Source: Prochlorococcus sp. AG-402-P18
GTDB lineage: Bacteria; Cyanobacteriota; Cyanobacteriia; PCC-6307; Cyanobiaceae
Assembly (NCBI GenBank): GCA_003216275.1
Contig: QCJC01000003.1
Coordinates: 1 to 64,000 of the forward strand
Length of the DNA: 64,000 nt
Reading direction: 5' to 3'
In this document: positions 820 to 20,471 of the stretch, one piece after another
Numbering within the stretch: the first letter of the stretch is position 1
How the letters are laid out: the number at the start of each line of letters is the position of its first letter
The notes under the pieces: model-generated
What the model was told of the DNA's origin: nothing
The model's input: the letters and a program-made list of their open reading frames with translations, nothing else
Database searches by the model: none
Translations under genes and position numbers: made by a program

Positions 820-1653
820 ATGAAACTTATCGACGCAGTTAGGCTTGCGTTTGAGGTAAGACCTTCATGGAAATATGCTTCAAACAGCACAGCTGACATC
901 AATACACGCCATGCAATCAGAGTGTTAGGAAAAGGATTAAGTATCGAATCAATCAAACCTTCAACCTTTACACAACTTGCAGACGCATTATTAAAAGAGG
1001 GATATGCATCAGCAACATGCAACAAGATCATGGCTGCATTGCATACTGTTTTAACGGAAGCACACCTAGAAGGAGTGCTGTCTTCAGTCCCTTCTTATCG
1101 ACGTTTAAAAGAGCCTCCAGCGAGCAAAGACGTCTATGAACCTACTGAACTAGATACGCTGCTAGAGCAGGCTTTAAAGCTCAACAAAGACGGTCTTTTG
1201 TTGCATAGGACTCTTCTATTTCTATATCTGACAGGAGCTCGCAGAAGTGAGCTATTGAATCTGAAATGGAATGATTGTGAATTAGATAAAAACAAGCTCA
1301 CCTTTGTTGATACAAAGAATGGAGATGATCACACAATCTCAATTCATCCAGAATTAAAACCTGTTTTATTAGAGATGTATCGTGAACGGATTGATGATGA
1401 CAAAGTATTTCCTTGGCAATCTCGTAACTCTTTAAATAACCGAATGAAAAAATTAAAGAAGATTACTGGGTTAGGAAGTAAACGCGCTCTTCATCAAATA
1501 CGTCATACAACTGCTACTCGATTAGTAGATGAAGGTGTAGAGATTAGAGCGATACAAGCTGTATTAAATCACCGTTCAATTAAAACAACTCTCAAATATG
1601 CAAAAGCTTTAGAGGCAACAAAAGCTAAAGCGATCAATCAACTCTCAATCTAA
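820..1653 (+). CDS. Tyrosine recombinase / integrase
   Basis: This 277-residue site-specific recombinase is complete. The N-terminal 100 residues form a SAM-like core-binding domain (LADALLKEGYASATCNKIMA). The catalytic domain follows, with all expected residues visible: Arg141 in TGARRSELLNL, Lys166 in TKNG, His225-x-x-Arg228 in HQIRH, His251 in LNHRS and nucleophile Tyr260 in TLKYAKAL. It should integrate and excise the element at a tRNA gene; the intact tRNA-Pro at 15,634-15,707 is the likely target. It follows the HTH gene at 500, probably in the same transcript. Length suits tycheposon and phage-type integrases. Confidence 0.93.
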   Translation: MKLIDAVRLAFEVRPSWKYASNSTADINTRHAIRVLGKGLSIESIKPSTFTQLADALLKEGYASATCNKIMAALHTVLTEAHLEGVLSSVPSYRRLKEPPASKDVYEPTELDTLLEQALKLNKDGLLLHRTLLFLYLTGARRSELLNLKWNDCELDKNKLTFVDTKNGDDHTISIHPELKPVLLEMYRERIDDDKVFPWQSRNSLNNRMKKLKKITGLGSKRALHQIRHTTATRLVDEGVEIRAIQAVLNHRSIKTTLKYAKALEATKAKAINQLSI

Positions 1654-12107: not shown

Positions 12108-12740
12108 ATGACTAATTCTAAAAATAGTTTAAATATAAGAAAAGAATACCTGAAAGAGAAAGCCTTAATCGTTGCTGTCTTCTTGTCTCTTCTTCCTCAC
12201 GGAGAAGTCTATGGATTCAACAAAGTCAAGACAGCTAATGACTACCTAGATGAAGCGGAACTAATCATAGAAAAAAATTATATGCCACTCCTCGAAAAGA
12301 AGAAAGGTGAAAAAGATAAGTTTCTTCAGCTTGTCAATCAATCATTGAAGCTAGAAGAAAGTGCTAGAGCTTATCTCTATCTCGGATTTGTTAGACATAT
12401 GGCCTTTGACTCAGATAGCTACAAAGATTCAGTTCAATACTACAAAAAAGCTATCGAATTAAAGCCAAAATACATTAGAGCATTGGTTGCTTTAAGTTCG
12501 GCACACACAAATGGCAAAAATTATCAGGAGTGTATGAATAGTACCAATCAAGTCTTAAAGATTGATCCCCAGAACAAGATAGCTAAACGACTTGAAGAAG
12601 ACTGTCAGTCCTCACTAGATCAACACAACCTCAACGAATGCATGAAAGATTATGAGGTCTTATGGCATCGTGAACCAAAGAACAAAGTAGTCTTAAAAAA
12701 GATCGATGAATGTATGGTTGAACTAGGGCAGAAATCATGA
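12108..12740 (+). CDS. Membrane-anchored or secreted TPR protein
   Basis: The 210-residue protein starts with a basic stretch (NIRKEYLKEK) and a hydrophobic segment (ALIVAVFLSLLP, residues 19-30) that could be a signal peptide ending near HGEVYG or a membrane anchor. The remainder is TPR-like (SARAYLYLGFVRHMAF, then DSVQYYKKAIELKP, then YQECMNSTNQVLKIDP). It is the only exported-looking protein in this operon. Its last bases overlap the next start by 4 bp (ATGA). Confidence 0.7.
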   Translation: MTNSKNSLNIRKEYLKEKALIVAVFLSLLPHGEVYGFNKVKTANDYLDEAELIIEKNYMPLLEKKKGEKDKFLQLVNQSLKLEESARAYLYLGFVRHMAFDSDSYKDSVQYYKKAIELKPKYIRALVALSSAHTNGKNYQECMNSTNQVLKIDPQNKIAKRLEEDCQSSLDQHNLNECMKDYEVLWHREPKNKVVLKKIDECMVELGQKS

Positions 12741-14593
12741 CTAGTTCAAAAAACTTTTCTTCTACCAAAGAATACGATCCAACTACTGACCGTGATGCTG
12801 TCCTTGAAGCAATTAATTTGTCAAGAGGAATAGCTCTCAGGTATGCCGACAAGAGATTAAAAGCTGACCGCATACTTGTCCTTGAGGCCATTAAGTCGTT
12901 TGCAAGAAGTAAAAGCTATGGGTCAGCCAATCCCTTCAGATATGCCGATAAAAACTTGAAGTCAAACTATCAATTTGTCCTTGAAATTATTAGAACAACT
13001 GGGAAGATCCCACCGCATATCGATGACAGCTTATGGTCTGATCATAAATTTGTCATTGAAGTTATTAAAGGGAAATCGATGGATGTTGTTGATTATCTCG
13101 ATAAGAAATTGTGGTCTGATCATAAATTTGTCATTGAAGCCTTTCAAGAAATGAATGACCAAAATATCTTTACATATAGTCTCCAAAAGATTGATATGAA
13201 ACTTTTGATGAATCCTGAAGTAGCCATTGAAGTTCTCAAAAAAGGTAATCAGCTTGACTGCCGCCATGACATGGAATTTCTTTGTCAGACAGGTTTACAT
13301 TGTCTCAGCGATGATGAAAGGTTGTGGTCTAATCCTAAATTTGTCATTGAAGCCATGAAACTATCAAACGGAGAAGCATTCGAATATGCTCATGAAAGCT
13401 TACTGAGTGACAAAGATTTTGTACTTGAATCTATTAAGTTGTTCAAAAGAATAGGTCTCCGATATGGCATTGAGAGCTTGAAGATCAACCGTGAATTTGT
13501 TTTAGATGCTGTTAAGGAAGAAGGTCTTGAACTCGAATTTGCTGATAAAAGATTACAGGCAGATCCTGAAATAGTACTTACGGCTATTAAATCAAATAGC
13601 AATGCTATCGATTATGTCGATAAGAGTTTGTGGTCTAATCGTAAATTTGTTTTAGAAGCAATTAAAGTGGCAGATGGTCGAGCTCTTGAATATGCTGATG
13701 AGACCTTAAAAGCCGATCGTGAGTTTGTCCTGAAAGTTGTCAAAGATACTCATGGAAACATTCTCTCCCATGCTGACAAGATTCTCAAGGCTGATCGTGA
13801 AGTGGTCTTTACAGCCATTAAGTCATCAAAAGGGCAAGCCTTACAGCATGCTGATGAAAACTTAAAAACCAATCGTGAGTTTGTCCTAAAAGCTTTAAAA
13901 TTAGGAGCAAGTTTACGAGACGTCGGTAAAAGTTTGTGTTCTGATCGTGAAGTCGTTCTTACAGCAGTAAAGAGTGATGGAAATAATTTTAAATATGCAG
14001 ATAAGAGTTTGAAGGCGGACCGTGAAGTGGTACTAGAATCTATGAATCATGCCTATGGCAACGACATGGTGCTAGGTAATGTCGACAAAAATTTGTGGGC
14101 TAATCGTAAGTTTGTTCTTGAAGCTATTAAGTTATGGCACAAAAACACACAAAATAGATTCATCGAGCATCCTTTCCAATTTGCTAATGAAAGATTGAGG
14201 AGTGACCGTGAAGTTGCACTAGAAGCTATTAAATCAACAAACGGCAAGGCATTTCTAGATACCGATCCTCATTTGCGAGCCGACCGTCAATTTATCTTAG
14301 AAGCTATTAAGGTATCAAACGGACTGGTATTACCATATGTAGATAAAAATATATTCAACGCTGACCCTGAAGTTGTCCTAACAGCTATTAAGTTACTTGA
14401 CAAAAAGAACTTTAAGTATTCATTGCCTCTCAGATGTGTAGATGAAAGTTTATGGTCTAAACGTGAATTTGTTTTTGAAGTAATTAAAAATAACATTGAC
14501 TATATACCTTGTGATATAGAAGTAGGTTTACTGTCTGACCATCAAGTAAGAATTACAGCGTTAAATCAAATATTGAGTACTAAAGAAAAATAG
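12737..14593 (+). CDS. DUF4116-type repeat protein
   Basis: The 618-residue protein is built almost entirely of repeats of about 40-50 residues reading roughly ...ADREFVLEAIK..G.ALEYADK.LK.... This is the DUF4116 repeat pattern (Pfam family), found in many large repeat proteins of bacteria and protists. More than a dozen units are visible. At DNA level some units are nearly identical over about 28 bp (near 13,030 and 13,110), showing recent unit duplication. No signal peptide or catalytic motif is seen. A binding or surface role is possible but unproven. It is the last gene of the helicase-led operon. Confidence 0.82.
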   Translation: MTSSKNFSSTKEYDPTTDRDAVLEAINLSRGIALRYADKRLKADRILVLEAIKSFARSKSYGSANPFRYADKNLKSNYQFVLEIIRTTGKIPPHIDDSLWSDHKFVIEVIKGKSMDVVDYLDKKLWSDHKFVIEAFQEMNDQNIFTYSLQKIDMKLLMNPEVAIEVLKKGNQLDCRHDMEFLCQTGLHCLSDDERLWSNPKFVIEAMKLSNGEAFEYAHESLLSDKDFVLESIKLFKRIGLRYGIESLKINREFVLDAVKEEGLELEFADKRLQADPEIVLTAIKSNSNAIDYVDKSLWSNRKFVLEAIKVADGRALEYADETLKADREFVLKVVKDTHGNILSHADKILKADREVVFTAIKSSKGQALQHADENLKTNREFVLKALKLGASLRDVGKSLCSDREVVLTAVKSDGNNFKYADKSLKADREVVLESMNHAYGNDMVLGNVDKNLWANRKFVLEAIKLWHKNTQNRFIEHPFQFANERLRSDREVALEAIKSTNGKAFLDTDPHLRADRQFILEAIKVSNGLVLPYVDKNIFNADPEVVLTAIKLLDKKNFKYSLPLRCVDESLWSKREFVFEVIKNNIDYIPCDIEVGLLSDHQVRITALNQILSTKEK

Positions 14594-15581: not shown

Positions 15582-15603
15582 AAAACGTCAGCAAAACGTC
15601 AGC
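15582..15603. repeat. Tandem 11-bp repeat beside tRNA-Pro 3' end
   Basis: AAAACGTCAGC occurs twice in tandem (15,582-15,592 and 15,593-15,603), 31 bp from the tRNA 3' end. Short direct repeats near an attachment site are typical arm-type binding sites for tyrosine recombinases or excisionases. Just upstream, AAGACCT/AGGTCTT (15,544-15,575) forms a weak hairpin over the preceding gene's stop. Confidence 0.45.
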
Positions 15604-15633
15604 AGGCTATTTATTCAAACTGTGAGATCCCAA

Positions 15634-15707
15634 TCGGGGCGACAGGATTCGAACCTGCGACCTAGTGCTCCCAAAGCACCCGCGCTACCAAGCTGCGCCA
15701 CGCCCCG
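15634..15707 (-). tRNA. tRNA-Pro (anticodon UGG)
   Basis: A complete 74-nt cloverleaf: acceptor CGGGGCG/CGCCCCG with discriminator A, D arm with GCGC stem, anticodon loop TTTGGGA giving UGG, and T loop GTTCGAATC. No encoded CCA. It is the attachment gene of the flanking element, which abuts its 3' end. Copies of its 5' half recur at 18,256 and, more decayed, at 18,134 and about 16,985. Confidence 0.95.
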
Positions 15708-16102
15708 CCAAAAATAATTGTAGCCCCTGATAGCTTCTAAGAGAATAGAAATTCTCTAAAGATTGATGCAACAATGATCAAATACAATCATTGGAACCTT
15801 TTTGTCGCCTGCAATTGACTTGAATCTCAATCAATATCAACGTTCATAGAGAGTAAGAAAGTTCCATATCCCTGTAAAGTCATAAAGGCAATTTTCATCC
15901 AAATAAGTAATACCCTCAAAATTGCTAAATATTCTATAAAAAATCACAGTTGAAGATAGAAAAATATTTTTGTCGTTAGAAATTTAGTGTTTTTTCGCTA
16001 GTAATTACAAATATAGTATATTCAAATTACAAAAATAAAAAATTTTTGGTTTTCAACGTATGATAAAAAATAATAAATTATTTTAGGGAAGAAGAACTAA
16101 GC
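15708..16102. other. Non-coding tRNA-Pro upstream region, very AT-rich
   Basis: The first roughly 95 bp should carry the tRNA-Pro promoter. They align by eye with 18,289-18,385, including ATTGTAG, GATCAAAT and a CTTTTT block. The rest is strongly AT-rich with no open frame and probably contains the promoter of the 16,103 gene. Confidence 0.5.
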
Positions 16103-16900
16103 ATGTTTTCTTTAGATAATGATTTTCTCCCATTTCTAGAATCTTACAAAAAATTATTTGATAAGAAAACTATCCAAATAGGTGAATGGTATTTAATAAG
16201 GCTTGGAGTTGCAAATGCTACTGGTGATAATGATTTAGATCCTGATGATTTCGATGATAATGACTTTATTGAAAACCAAGTTGGAATACAAATAACTATA
16301 GCTGATGTAAGTATTGAAGGGAAAAGTTTTACTTTAATAGATTTAGGAGATGGAAATTCAGCTTTATGTAAAGACTTACTATATAAAAGGGATGATTATT
16401 CCGATGACATAACAGCTTTTACTGAGACACTTTATAATCTAAAGCCAAATTTATTTGAAGGATCTGAAGCAAAGGAATACGTAGACGTATTAAATGCTAT
16501 AAAAAAGTTCGATACAAAAGGCAATGATTATTGGGTGACAAATAATTCTTCGTCTCCGAACAATTTAAATATTCCATTTCCTTTCTGGCTACTATCATCT
16601 CTAACTTTAGCTGCTAAAGATAGTGACTCAGCTTGGATTTATTGGTTAACAGGGTATCCTCATGAGTTAGAAAAGTATTTTTTTTATGAAGGAAGAGATT
16701 CCACTCCAATAGCAAAATATTCTCCAAGTGTATTCATGATATGTTCGAAAATAGATGATTCAGAAGGAGAATTTACATTTAAAGATGGATTATTCTCTCT
16801 AAGTGAATGTGAAGATAAATATAAAAATCTGAGTGATTTTTTCTCATATTTATCTGACAATAGTCACGTTATCGGGTTGAGCTTATCAAAAGATTCTTAA
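16103..16900 (+). CDS. Acidic orphan protein in tRNA-Pro remnant island
   Basis: The 265-residue protein is rich in Asp, Asn and Ser. It opens with MFSLDNDFLPFLESYKKLF, has a DPDDFDDNDF acidic run near residue 50, and an aromatic segment (FPFWLLSSLTLAAKDSDSAW) near 155-185. No signal peptide, catalytic motif or known family is seen. The ATG follows a GGGAAGAAG ribosome site. It lies between the intact tRNA-Pro and a decayed tRNA copy, so it was probably delivered by an earlier insertion. Confidence 0.7.
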   Translation: MFSLDNDFLPFLESYKKLFDKKTIQIGEWYLIRLGVANATGDNDLDPDDFDDNDFIENQVGIQITIADVSIEGKSFTLIDLGDGNSALCKDLLYKRDDYSDDITAFTETLYNLKPNLFEGSEAKEYVDVLNAIKKFDTKGNDYWVTNNSSSPNNLNIPFPFWLLSSLTLAAKDSDSAWIYWLTGYPHELEKYFFYEGRDSTPIAKYSPSVFMICSKIDDSEGEFTFKDGLFSLSECEDKYKNLSDFFSYLSDNSHVIGLSLSKDS

Positions 16901-17361
16901 ACATTTAATTTTTTTTTTAATTTTGGATAAATAAAATTTAAATTAATAAAAGATAACGTTTATAAGATAATTTTAGAGGATTTCATAATACCTGCGCTAC
17001 CAAGAGGCATGCCCGTTCTAATACCCCTTCATGCCAGCCTTGTGGGCCAGCAAAAGTTATTTGTATATATAACATTCTATTCAAATAATTGTTTAATTTG
17101 AGTTCTCAAATATTACTTGATAAATTCAAGAGCAAAGTCAAAACCAAATTAAATATTGGATTATAAACGGGAGACGGGAGTAGAAAACCATTGATATAGA
17201 TTAAGTTCCTACCAATCCCAGAAAGCTCCAAGCAAGTAGAAAAAGGTTTTAAGACTTTTAACAGTGCGAAAAAATGTCAAATAAGCTTATAAAGCTATTG
17301 AATCAGTCTTAGTCTGATTAGAAAGTAAAATTAACTCTCTAAAAATGAAATATATATCAAC
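16901..17361. other. Non-coding gap with decayed tRNA-like fragment
   Basis: No gene is seen. At about 16,982-17,024 the sequence TTTCATAAT, then TGCGCTACCAAG, then CCCGTTCTAATA, resembles the decayed tRNA-Pro copy at 18,128-18,177, which also has TTTCATAAT and CCGTTCTAATA. It is interpreted as a further decayed attachment-site remnant. The remainder is AT-rich. Confidence 0.4.
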
Positions 17362-17958
17362 TTATAACTTATTTAATTTATTAGCTATAGCAAGAGGGTC
17401 TGAACCCAAGTCTATAAATTCATATTTATCAGGTGATTCAGAATTAATAAATACTGCTTTCATCAATCCTTCAACAGAGGTACTCACTGTGAAATTATCA
17501 TCGCCAAAATCGTAATCATAATTTGCATCAACTTTAAAATATTTTTTAGTATTTTTTTTGTATATATCTCCATAGTTACCATCACTTGTGCTATCTGGAT
17601 ATTTAACTTCAAGATTTCTGGATCTAATAATAATTAATTCCTTTTCATAGTTTAAAATCTCTTTAATAAAGTCATCATCATCTGGAAATATCCAATTAAT
17701 GAAGCTGCCATTAGATAAATATTGATCTAATTTAGATTTTTCATCAGGAAGATAAAAGTAGCAGCCTAAAATAACTGGTTCATATTCTTCTATAAAAAAT
17801 TCATAATCATCTTCTTCATAATCATCAAGTTCAATTTCTTGAAGACAGTTATTAGACCCTTCAAACAAGAAATAAACAAGCTTATCTCCATCTTTAATTG
17901 ATAATTCACTTTCGACTGAATCACCAATTATTTCGTTGAACTTGTCATTTACATCCAT
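17362..17958 (-). CDS. Acidic orphan protein, convergent with 16,103 gene
   Basis: The 198-residue protein has close to a quarter Asp plus Glu (runs ELDDYEEDDYEFF and FPDDDDF), alternating with aromatic and beta-prone stretches (KLVYFLFEG, VILGCYFYLP, ELIIIRSRNLEVKYP). No family recognised. With the 16,103 product it forms a convergent pair of acidic proteins inside the tRNA-Pro remnant island. DNA mimicry or an antitoxin role could be imagined, but nothing in the sequence demonstrates it. Confidence 0.68.
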   Translation of the reverse strand: MDVNDKFNEIIGDSVESELSIKDGDKLVYFLFEGSNNCLQEIELDDYEEDDYEFFIEEYEPVILGCYFYLPDEKSKLDQYLSNGSFINWIFPDDDDFIKEILNYEKELIIIRSRNLEVKYPDSTSDGNYGDIYKKNTKKYFKVDANYDYDFGDDNFTVSTSVEGLMKAVFINSESPDKYEFIDLGSDPLAIANKLNKL

Positions 17959-18051
17959 GTTATTGAAAAATCAAGTTTCACATTTAAATAATAATATAGA
18001 AAAACATCCAATTTCAATTCTTTTATACCTCTAGCACCCCATTCGATTGGT

Positions 18052-18178
18052 ATTTTGTCGCTCGCTATCGCCCAGAAAGGTTTTGTTGAATTAAAAACCT
18101 AAGCTATAACAAGACTGTCGCTTGTCTAATTTCATAATCCCAAAGCACCCGGGCTATTCGAGGTAGTCCGTTCTAATA
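18052..18178. repeat. Decayed tRNA-Pro attachment copy, unit 1
   Basis: The unit runs TTTTGTCGCTCGCTA, then AAGGTTTTGTTG, then GACTGTCGC.TGTCT, then CCCAAAGCACCCG and GGCTA, the last part matching the tRNA-Pro anticodon loop and arm. The same ordered landmarks repeat in the next unit. Beyond GGCTA the tRNA similarity is lost. Confidence 0.55.
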
Positions 18179-18385
18179 AGTTTTTGTCGCTCGCTAAGGT
18201 TTTGTTGCCTCAAAAAAGCCTTGCCATCACAGGACTGTCGCATGTCTCAAGTTCTGCTCCTAAAGCACCCGCGCTACCAAGCTGCGCCAAAGAAGATTGT
18301 AGACCCTGAAAGCTGCTAAGAAAAATATAATTTTTTTAAAGTTTGAAGGAATAGTGATCAAATTCAATTATTAGAAGCTTTTTAA
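18179..18385 (-). pseudogene. tRNA-Pro remnant (5' half plus upstream DNA), unit 2
   Basis: TGCTCC.AAAGCACCCGCGC and the following TACCAAGCTGCGCCA match the intact tRNA-Pro 5' half with one difference over about 35 bp (18,256-18,290). Similarity continues through about 95 bp of the tRNA's upstream DNA. The 3' half is replaced by, or decayed into, sequence shared with unit 1, and the acceptor stem is broken (GCGCCAAAG), so it is not functional. This is what remains when an insertion supplies a new tRNA 5' end and promoter. Confidence 0.7.
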
Positions 18386-18533: not shown

Positions 18534-20471
18534 ATGAAAAAGATATCTCTAGATATTCAACAGTTTCAGATAAAAGTCTCAATGGCTTTAAAAGATAACA
18601 ATACTGACAATGCAATAAAAATTTGTCAAGAACATCTAGATAAGAATTTCGAGAAATGGATAATATTTGAAACACTCGCTTTTATATACCTGATCAGATC
18701 AGAATGGCTTAATTCATCGAATTTCTCAGAGAAAGCTCTTTCATTGAACAAAAATTCAGCTCAAAGCTGGTCGACATTAGGTATTGCTTTTAAAAATTTA
18801 GGTAGATATAAAAAAGCACTTTCGGCTTACAAGCAATCTATTGAGATCAATCCTACATCTGAATTAGTCCTTTCGAATATGGGACTTGTTTTATGGAAAC
18901 TTAATAGAAATGAAGAAGCTAAATTAGCATTAAAAAAAGCACTTGAAATCAGACAATCATTTCCTGAGGCTGCTTATAACCTAGGCAAGGTATATGAATC
19001 TGAAAACAAAATTGATGATTCTATTCTATACTTTAAAGAAGCAATCAAAATAAGAAATAATTATTCAGAAGCAATTGTGGATCTATCTATTTGTTTAGAT
19101 AAAAAGGGAAATACGATAGAAGCAATTAGATTACTTGAAGAATCTGTTGACAATAAAATAAATACACCTTTAATAATAAAAAATTTAATATACCTAAAAG
19201 GTAAAATTTGTGATTGGACTAAACAAAATCTAATAGAAGAATCATTAAAAGAGCTTGGGATAAAAGGAAAAGCTATAAGTCCTATGGGTTTAATGGCTTA
19301 CGAAGATTCACCTGAAAAACATCTTATAAGGGCACAGAGATTTTGGGAACAGAATTTCATTGAGGAAAGTACTAAAATGCCGTTAAATATGAATAAAAAG
19401 ATTAGGGTTGGTTATTTTTCAGCAGATTTTAATGAACATGCTGTTATGCATTTGATGACAAGAGTTTTCGAACTGCATAATAAAGATAAATTTTCGATTT
19501 ATTGCTTTTCTTTTGGGAATAAACCCGAAGATAGATATAAAGAAAGAATAGTTAATTCTGTGAATAGATTTCTAGATGTAAAAGATAAAAAAGATATAGA
19601 GATTTCTAAAATCTCTAGAGAATTAAAAATCGATATAGCAATTGATCTTATGGGATATTCTAAAAATAGTAGGCCAAAAATTTTTGCCTATAGAGCGGCT
19701 CCAATCCAAATCTCATACTTAGGTTTTCCAGGAACTATGGGAGCGAAATCAATTGATTATATTATTGCTGACAAATATTTAATCCCTGAGGAAAGTAAAA
19801 ATTTTTATTCTGAAAAAATCATTTATATGCCAAACTGCTATCAATGTAATGATGATAAACTATTACCATCATCTTCTCAATATAGTAAACAACTACTTGG
19901 AATTAATAATAATGATTTTGTTTTTTCATGTTTTAATGCAAATTACAAGATTACACCAAAAGAATTCAATATTTGGATTAGACTTTTAAAAAAAATTGAT
20001 AAAAGTGTCTTATGGTTAGTAAAATCAAATCAATTTTCAGAAATTAATCTTAAAAATATTTTAGTTAAAGAAGGAATCGATCCAAAAAGGATTATTTTTT
20101 CAGAATATATAAAAATTGAGGATCATTTATCAAGATTAAAAATTTCAGACCTTCATTTAGATACTTTTAATTATAATGCTGGCGCAACCGCTTTATTTTC
20201 ATTAAAGGCTGGAGTCCCTATCCTTACTAAAACTGGTCGGAGTTATACAGCAAGAATGGCTACAAGTATTTTAAAGTCTCTAGGTTTAAATGAATTAATA
20301 ACTACGACTGAATATGAATATGAAAATGTTGCATATCATCTAGCAACTAATAGTGAATTATTGAATGAAATAAAGTTAAAGGTAAATAGATTATTGAAAA
20401 GCGAATTCTTTAATTCCTCAAATTTTACAAATGATCTCGAAGAAATTTATATTAAATTAAATAATAAATGA
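18534..20471 (+). CDS. TPR protein with SPINDLY/OGT-type GT41 glycosyltransferase domain
   Basis: The 645-residue protein has N-terminal TPRs (about residues 40-210, such as SWSTLGIAFKNLGRYKKALS and SEAIVDLSICLDKKGNTIEA) and a GT41 domain from about 288 to the end. Typical GT41 landmarks are present: RVGYFSADFNEHAV, PIQISYLGFPGTMGAKSIDY, and DTFNYNAGATALFSLKAGVP followed by TKTGRSYTARMATSILKSLGL. These enzymes transfer GlcNAc or a related sugar to proteins. It stands alone after the tRNA remnants, so it may be variable cargo that alters cell-surface or protein glycosylation. The ATG at 18,534 is used. Confidence 0.88.
   Translation: MKKISLDIQQFQIKVSMALKDNNTDNAIKICQEHLDKNFEKWIIFETLAFIYLIRSEWLNSSNFSEKALSLNKNSAQSWSTLGIAFKNLGRYKKALSAYKQSIEINPTSELVLSNMGLVLWKLNRNEEAKLALKKALEIRQSFPEAAYNLGKVYESENKIDDSILYFKEAIKIRNNYSEAIVDLSICLDKKGNTIEAIRLLEESVDNKINTPLIIKNLIYLKGKICDWTKQNLIEESLKELGIKGKAISPMGLMAYEDSPEKHLIRAQRFWEQNFIEESTKMPLNMNKKIRVGYFSADFNEHAVMHLMTRVFELHNKDKFSIYCFSFGNKPEDRYKERIVNSVNRFLDVKDKKDIEISKISRELKIDIAIDLMGYSKNSRPKIFAYRAAPIQISYLGFPGTMGAKSIDYIIADKYLIPEESKNFYSEKIIYMPNCYQCNDDKLLPSSSQYSKQLLGINNNDFVFSCFNANYKITPKEFNIWIRLLKKIDKSVLWLVKSNQFSEINLKNILVKEGIDPKRIIFSEYIKIEDHLSRLKISDLHLDTFNYNAGATALFSLKAGVPILTKTGRSYTARMATSILKSLGLNELITTTEYEYENVAYHLATNSELLNEIKLKVNRLLKSEFFNSSNFTNDLEEIYIKLNNK

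Follow-up and report, generated by a model that had tools for sequence, protein, structure and literature searches.

The window investigated in this study, the first 64 kb of contig C3 from the 1.85-Mb genome of Prochlorococcus sp. AG-402-P18, contains an intact tRNA-Pro(TGG) gene together with displaced remnants of its 5' half, and it is the origin of these remnants with which our analysis is concerned. The gene has a foreign 3' flank, with an island to its left that carries a tyrosine integrase, and on its 5' side it is bordered by an insertion of about 2.5 kb that holds two open reading frames (ORFs), two distal blocks in which arm motifs can be recognised, and the decayed remnants. A search of named genomes with a conserved neighbouring protein retrieved 19 loci, all from Prochlorococcus single-cell genomes and 18 of them at 70–76% identity. 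Of 14 congener loci fetched first, one is truncated by a contig end; in the other 13 the DNA to the right of tRNA-Pro reaches the core genes of the window, so the sequence between tRNA-Pro and these core genes is variable or inserted. In Rfam, the intact tRNA was the sole match for the tRNA-Pro region of the window, with everything else at chance level. The features of this region, with the upstream DNA classified into types as described further below, are:

15634–15707, minus strand: intact tRNA-Pro(TGG), read here as a rebuilt junction
15666–15675: 10-bp core TGCTCCCAAA (anticodon loop and stem edge), common to 5'-half remnants and 3'-half fragments
15708–15806, minus strand: type-B upstream/promoter DNA adjoining the intact tRNA-Pro, assigned by congener comparison and promoter tree
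16990–17004, minus strand: weak third 5'-half remnant, 14 of 15 nt, ACCTGCGCTACCAAG
18033–18133, minus strand: second distal terminal block (Z), arm motif TTGTCGCTCG at 18055
18134–18178, minus strand: decayed 5'-half remnant (copy 2), score 33 versus a shuffled maximum of 22
18155–18254, minus strand: distal terminal block (Z) next to copy 1, with a decayed hairpin and, at 18184, the arm motif TTGTCGCTCG; the start of the block overlaps copy 2 because the profile match extends further
18255–18289, minus strand: stranded tRNA-Pro 5' half (copy 1), 34 of 35 positions identical to the intact gene
18290–18383, minus strand: stranded older type-B promoter DNA beside copy 1, assigned by upstream similarity and promoter tree

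Stranded copies of the tRNA 5' half

A preliminary description of the window, made from its letters alone, had noted a copy of the 5' half with about 95 bp of upstream DNA, which is borne out by our comparison. Copy 1 with its upstream DNA (18255–18383) was recovered in a whole-genome search with an E-value of 1e-24, and its local alignment reaches a score of 125 versus a maximum of 32 in shuffled sequences. Missing from this copy are 7 nt at the start of the tRNA as well as 2 nt of upstream DNA. The upstream DNA by itself is significantly similar (score 84, shuffled maximum 33), so that the proposed serial insertion, which a lack of similarity would have called into question, withstands this comparison. 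The same description had placed a more decayed copy behind the same flanking block, as is also found, with the flank of copy 2 (18033–18133) matching the sequence at 18155–18254 with a score of 55 (shuffled maximum 29). As for a third and still weaker copy, the match of 15 nt could be located and its region also holds GAGGCATGCCCGTTCTAATA, which is common to copy 2, but the significance is marginal (p of about 0.001–0.003 for its stretch of 70–80 nt); this remnant is probably, though not certainly, real.

Promoter types at intact and stranded halves

In the window genome and its congeners, the upstream DNA at the intact tRNA-Pro is of three kinds, here termed A, B and C. Type A is found in nine congeners without any 5' remnant, type B in 11 genomes (the window and ten congeners) and type C in three. 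Genomes with an empty 5' side carry no remnants, which leaves serial insertion standing also in this respect. In five of the 11 type-B genomes the stranded 5' half retains type A, which is badly decayed in L056, and in four it has an older type B, with both A and B in one of these genomes. In a tree of the upstream DNA, type A (10 intact and 4 stranded sequences) is separated from type B (11 intact, 4 stranded) by a split with a value of 100/100. The stranded halves of type A, the type present at the intact tRNA of empty-site genomes, occur beside an intact B within the same genomes. Together with this split, they directly show what had been proposed earlier, namely that an insertion supplied a new 5' half with its promoter and stranded the old one.

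The order of these layers is preserved in L051, where the tRNA with its B promoter is followed by a stranded B and then by a stranded A, and which is a record of two successive insertions. In the complete genome L094, tRNA-Pro has a C promoter, and another C copy is stranded 1.5 kb upstream of the tRNA; a gene for a pilin-like protein is located between them. In two other loci, L057 and L096, the type-B DNA changes abruptly to another upstream sequence about 55–70 bp from the tRNA and no remnant is found, which suggests that a 5' element was lost through deletion or gene conversion.

Whole integrase-bearing elements in related genera

A family search with the distal block and type-B DNA identified a sister genus, where the arms are directly followed by a protein of 422–429 amino acids that matches a PHROG integrase family with an E-value of 5e-18 and whose match to the Pfam integrase lies below the curated cut-off. 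Eighteen out of the 40 homologous loci that were fetched begin beside a tRNA-Pro, 17 of them at an intact gene, at a projected distance of 70–152 bp from its 5' end, and one at a 5' half. This set includes every locus with more than 39.0% identity and one at 38.8%; L180, at 39.0%, is fragmentary and located at the end of a contig where no tRNA-Pro is visible, and in the other 21 loci no tRNA-Pro was detected within the approximately 1.5 kb fetched per side. In related genera, a dedicated clade of tyrosine integrases is located directly 5' of tRNA-Pro.

Four complete genomes contain a stranded 5' half, 38–42 bp long, at a distance of 19.0, 25.1, 28.7 or 43.2 kb from tRNA-Pro. Since its upstream DNA is just 46–54% identical to that of the intact tRNA, the two promoters are unrelated and the promoter has been replaced. 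Integration at the 5' half with replacement of the promoter is thus apparent from these low identities as well as from the A and B types at intact and stranded halves, and the whole elements of 19–43 kb show the same arrangement that had been postulated for the window. In G155, G143 and G226 the arm motifs agree at both ends of the element. The integrase-bearing 5'-side element of G226 (contig C5, L140:1–18320) carries genes resembling a phosphate-binding protein (PHROG 5385), GAPDH, an MFS transporter and a metallophosphatase, and its cargo looks related to phosphate or arsenate.

Shared core, arm-type repeats and the island on the 3' side

In every genome compared, the breakpoints fall at the anticodon-loop core. 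The 3'-half fragments, which mark the far ends of 3'-side islands, finish in TGCTCCCAAA, the ten bases that open the 5' halves, and in the window a displaced tRNA fragment (18255–18289) is found with this core at the far end of the 5'-side insertion. Features of the window that concern the 3' side are:

820–1653, plus strand: tyrosine integrase of the 3'-side island (PF00589)
15582–15604: direct repeat AAAACGTCAGCA, two copies 11 bp apart (p = 0.003), which may serve the 3'-side island as integrase arm sites

Direct repeats with a spacing of 11–12 bp are found near position −71 on the 3' side of tRNA-Pro, with p < 0.05 in 21 of 24 genomes. They reside at a nearly fixed position and differ in sequence between genomes (for example between the window and L051–L064), as expected of integrase arm sites, and the 3' flanks of tRNA-Pro offer a collection of putative specificities of 3'-side integrases for their arm sites. 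The 5' side follows the same design, with TTTGTCACTCG present twice in type B and TAGGCCGC twice in type C, and its arm motifs recur about 80 bp from the distal core. Such repeats are clear on both sides of the core in congeners and in the full elements, whereas the window contains single decayed motifs only.

Besides its integrase, the 3'-side island of the window contains a DnaB-like gene, and its far end is located on another contig. A 3'-half fragment with the ancestral 3' flank is found on contig C21 of the same genome and, as equivalent fragments mark the distal ends of 3'-side elements there and in five congeners, the suggestion that islands have grown from both sides of one tRNA is sustained. 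Since C3 and C21 are unjoined and their arm-like repeats differ, the 3'-side island of the window may be composite. In L094, a 3'-half fragment with an integrase-like gene beside it is located 8.8 kb to the other side of the tRNA, so that this closed genome, with its 5' remnant, has a single tRNA that is occupied on either side. The island of the window also encodes a protein of 618 amino acids with at least nine DUF4116 repeats (12737–14593).

Repeated acquisition of promoters

On a tree of 17 neighbouring core proteins the promoter types require ten changes, compared to a mean of 10.3 for shuffled labels. Although this tree contains many weak branches, its strongly supported branches alone still force several changes for type B. 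This scattered distribution implies that type B was acquired repeatedly, and a single ancestral event passed on by descent was rejected since the promoter type does not track the core-protein tree. Among L051, L052, L053 and L095, the noncoding type-B DNA is 93–99% identical, whereas the coding DNA of their sulP is 78–89% identical, with the values for L095 possibly depressed by a shorter sequence. For type A, 27 of 28 pairs show lower conservation in the upstream DNA than in coding DNA. The divergence of the window's own type-B copy about equals that of coding DNA, and this copy was thus acquired earlier.

Cargo of the insertions

The two ORFs of the 5'-side insertion have no relatives in 40 congeners, Pfam or PHROGs:

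16103–16900, plus strand: cargo ORF of 265 amino acids
17362–17958, minus strand: cargo ORF of 198 amino acids

In several other genomes, the 5'-side cargo is a pilin-like protein (L094:9930–10937 and L051:6911–9091, with traces in L098 and L102) that consists of a prepilin N-terminus (GFSLIELVVVVSVL) and a long C-terminal part. The protein is 71% identical between L051 and L094, despite tRNA promoters of types B and C, respectively. Immediately beyond the stranded 5' half of the window, a TPR protein with a glycosyltransferase family 41 domain (18534–20471) may be the cargo of an older insertion whose remnant has vanished.

Proposed mechanism and alternative explanations

We consider it very likely that the remnants are the junctions of elements which integrated from the 5' side, with a tyrosine recombinase mediating the crossover within the anticodon loop of tRNA-Pro(TGG). 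Beside the 10-bp core, such an element would carry its own tRNA 5' half and promoter, and its integration would combine the 3' half of the host with the 5' half and promoter of the element to rebuild a complete tRNA gene, leaving the old 5' half and promoter of the host stranded at the far end, beside the terminal block (Z) of the element. Later insertions would enter the rebuilt tRNA, with the newest residing nearest to it and the older ones being pushed outward, and the bigger island on the 3' side would have used the same core with another integrase. At the level of sequence, the junctions, the replacement of promoters, its repeated and independent occurrence and the whole integrase-bearing elements of related genera are all evident; a tyrosine recombinase would presumably provide the chemistry of the crossover, and the new promoters are predicted to drive tRNA-Pro.

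Several observations weigh against this mechanism. The 5'-side intervals of the window and the examined Prochlorococcus congeners yielded no integrase, the dedicated 5'-side integrase was not detected in the genome of the window, the proximal arm repeat on the 5' side of the window is not significant, and a search for a free form in viral contigs with two DNA patterns and one protein gave no match. An integrase inside the element is found in the full elements of related genera but not in 5'-side insertions of the window's genus. The most plausible reading of the latter, short insertions is that they belong to the 5'-side family as non-autonomous or decayed members, which would either have relied on an integrase supplied in trans or have lost the one they had.

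It is highly improbable that the copies arose by plain duplication, segmental or tandem, of the region around the tRNA promoter and are unconnected with integration. Copy 2 and its flank do form a 120-bp tandem repeat of copy 1 and its flank, and may reflect such a local duplication rather than a separate insertion, but duplication cannot yield a stranded promoter-A half beside a promoter-B tRNA and is contradicted for copy 1. It would also not account for breakpoints that coincide with the core throughout, or for the whole elements residing between the copies in four complete genomes. The stranded 5' half with its linker and hairpin could alternatively be a small-RNA gene that was retained for a function of its own, as the tRNA half is well conserved and followed by a hairpin and TTTTTT in five congeners and in G226; an alignment row with erroneous coordinates (G018try) was disregarded. 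We regard this as very unlikely, since the hairpin is weak in the window, where a terminator scan of the region detected none, and a T-tailed hairpin is absent from the distal blocks of G100, G251, G155 and G143. Moreover, its presence tracks integration rather than species, and a terminator at the end of the element accounts for the hairpin; the interpretation of the chimera as a small RNA, based on hairpin and T tail, was set aside once the stranded type-A promoters and the whole elements had been found.

Only slightly less doubtful is a spread of the type-B promoter through ordinary homologous recombination between lineages instead of site-specific integration. The type-B DNA without remnant in L057 and L096 could reflect conversion or deletion, and homologous recombination is a possible route for the later spread of some B promoters. 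It is contradicted where a remnant exists, as such exchange would neither strand the old 5' half and promoter nor leave matched arm repeats and terminal blocks.

Relation to known systems and implications

According to a review, recombinant bacterial tRNA genes that are not expressed from the promoter they had originally are very few, and while pTN3-like integrases of archaea use the tRNA 5' half, a bacterial counterpart is seldom met (PMC8371274). Elements that restore the 5' half are thus known but rare, and the filters of Islander admit 5' fragments upstream of a tRNA (PMC4383910). Like the tRNA islands described in that work, the elements studied here split and rebuild their target and leave a displaced fragment at the far end. 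However, Islander-type islands usually rebuild the 3' half and keep the host promoter, whereas here the 5' half and promoter were replaced serially, and the short insertions lack an integrase. As with pTN3-like integrases, the rebuilt tRNA would be expressed from the side of the element, but the present system is bacterial, belongs to another integrase clade, has its integrase beside and divergent from the tRNA and forms serial layers. In tRNA-dependent lysogeny, arm-type sites of mycobacteriophages flank a 10-bp core within a tRNA (PMC10865867); the core of about 10 bp in an essential tRNA and the paired putative arm-type sites are shared with our elements, although the phages bring a whole spare tRNA gene, whereas here the host gene is rebuilt from its 5' side. 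Tycheposons of Prochlorococcus resemble our elements as tRNA-bounded cargo elements with tyrosine recombinases, as outlined in PMC10872708 and PMC11389934, the former quoting a definition as 4–200 kb cargo elements with a tyrosine recombinase at one of seven tRNA genes. Compared to this definition, the 3'-side island contains an integrase and a DnaB-like gene, whereas the 5'-side insertion is about 2.5 kb long and lacks an integrase. In the literature outside the original tycheposon paper and Williams 2002, no description was found of a clade that is dedicated to a single tRNA in several genera, of serial layers or of promoters moving between lineages.

With the odds about evenly balanced, we propose that the tRNA-Pro(TGG) of picocyanobacteria serves as a two-sided landing platform, where a 5'-side clade and its integrase-less satellite cassettes would carry a promoter between species and build an ordered array with the newest insertion nearest to the tRNA, and where 3'-side elements would use the same core. 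If this is correct, an installed promoter may alter the supply of tRNA-Pro. The exception to promoter retention recurs here at one locus across many genera, with at least three promoter types, and the layers of one genome preserve the order in which they arrived. The history of insertions can thus be read from promoter layers, the presence of islands on both sides of tRNA-Pro is explained, and the effect of swapping the promoter of a tRNA gene becomes testable.
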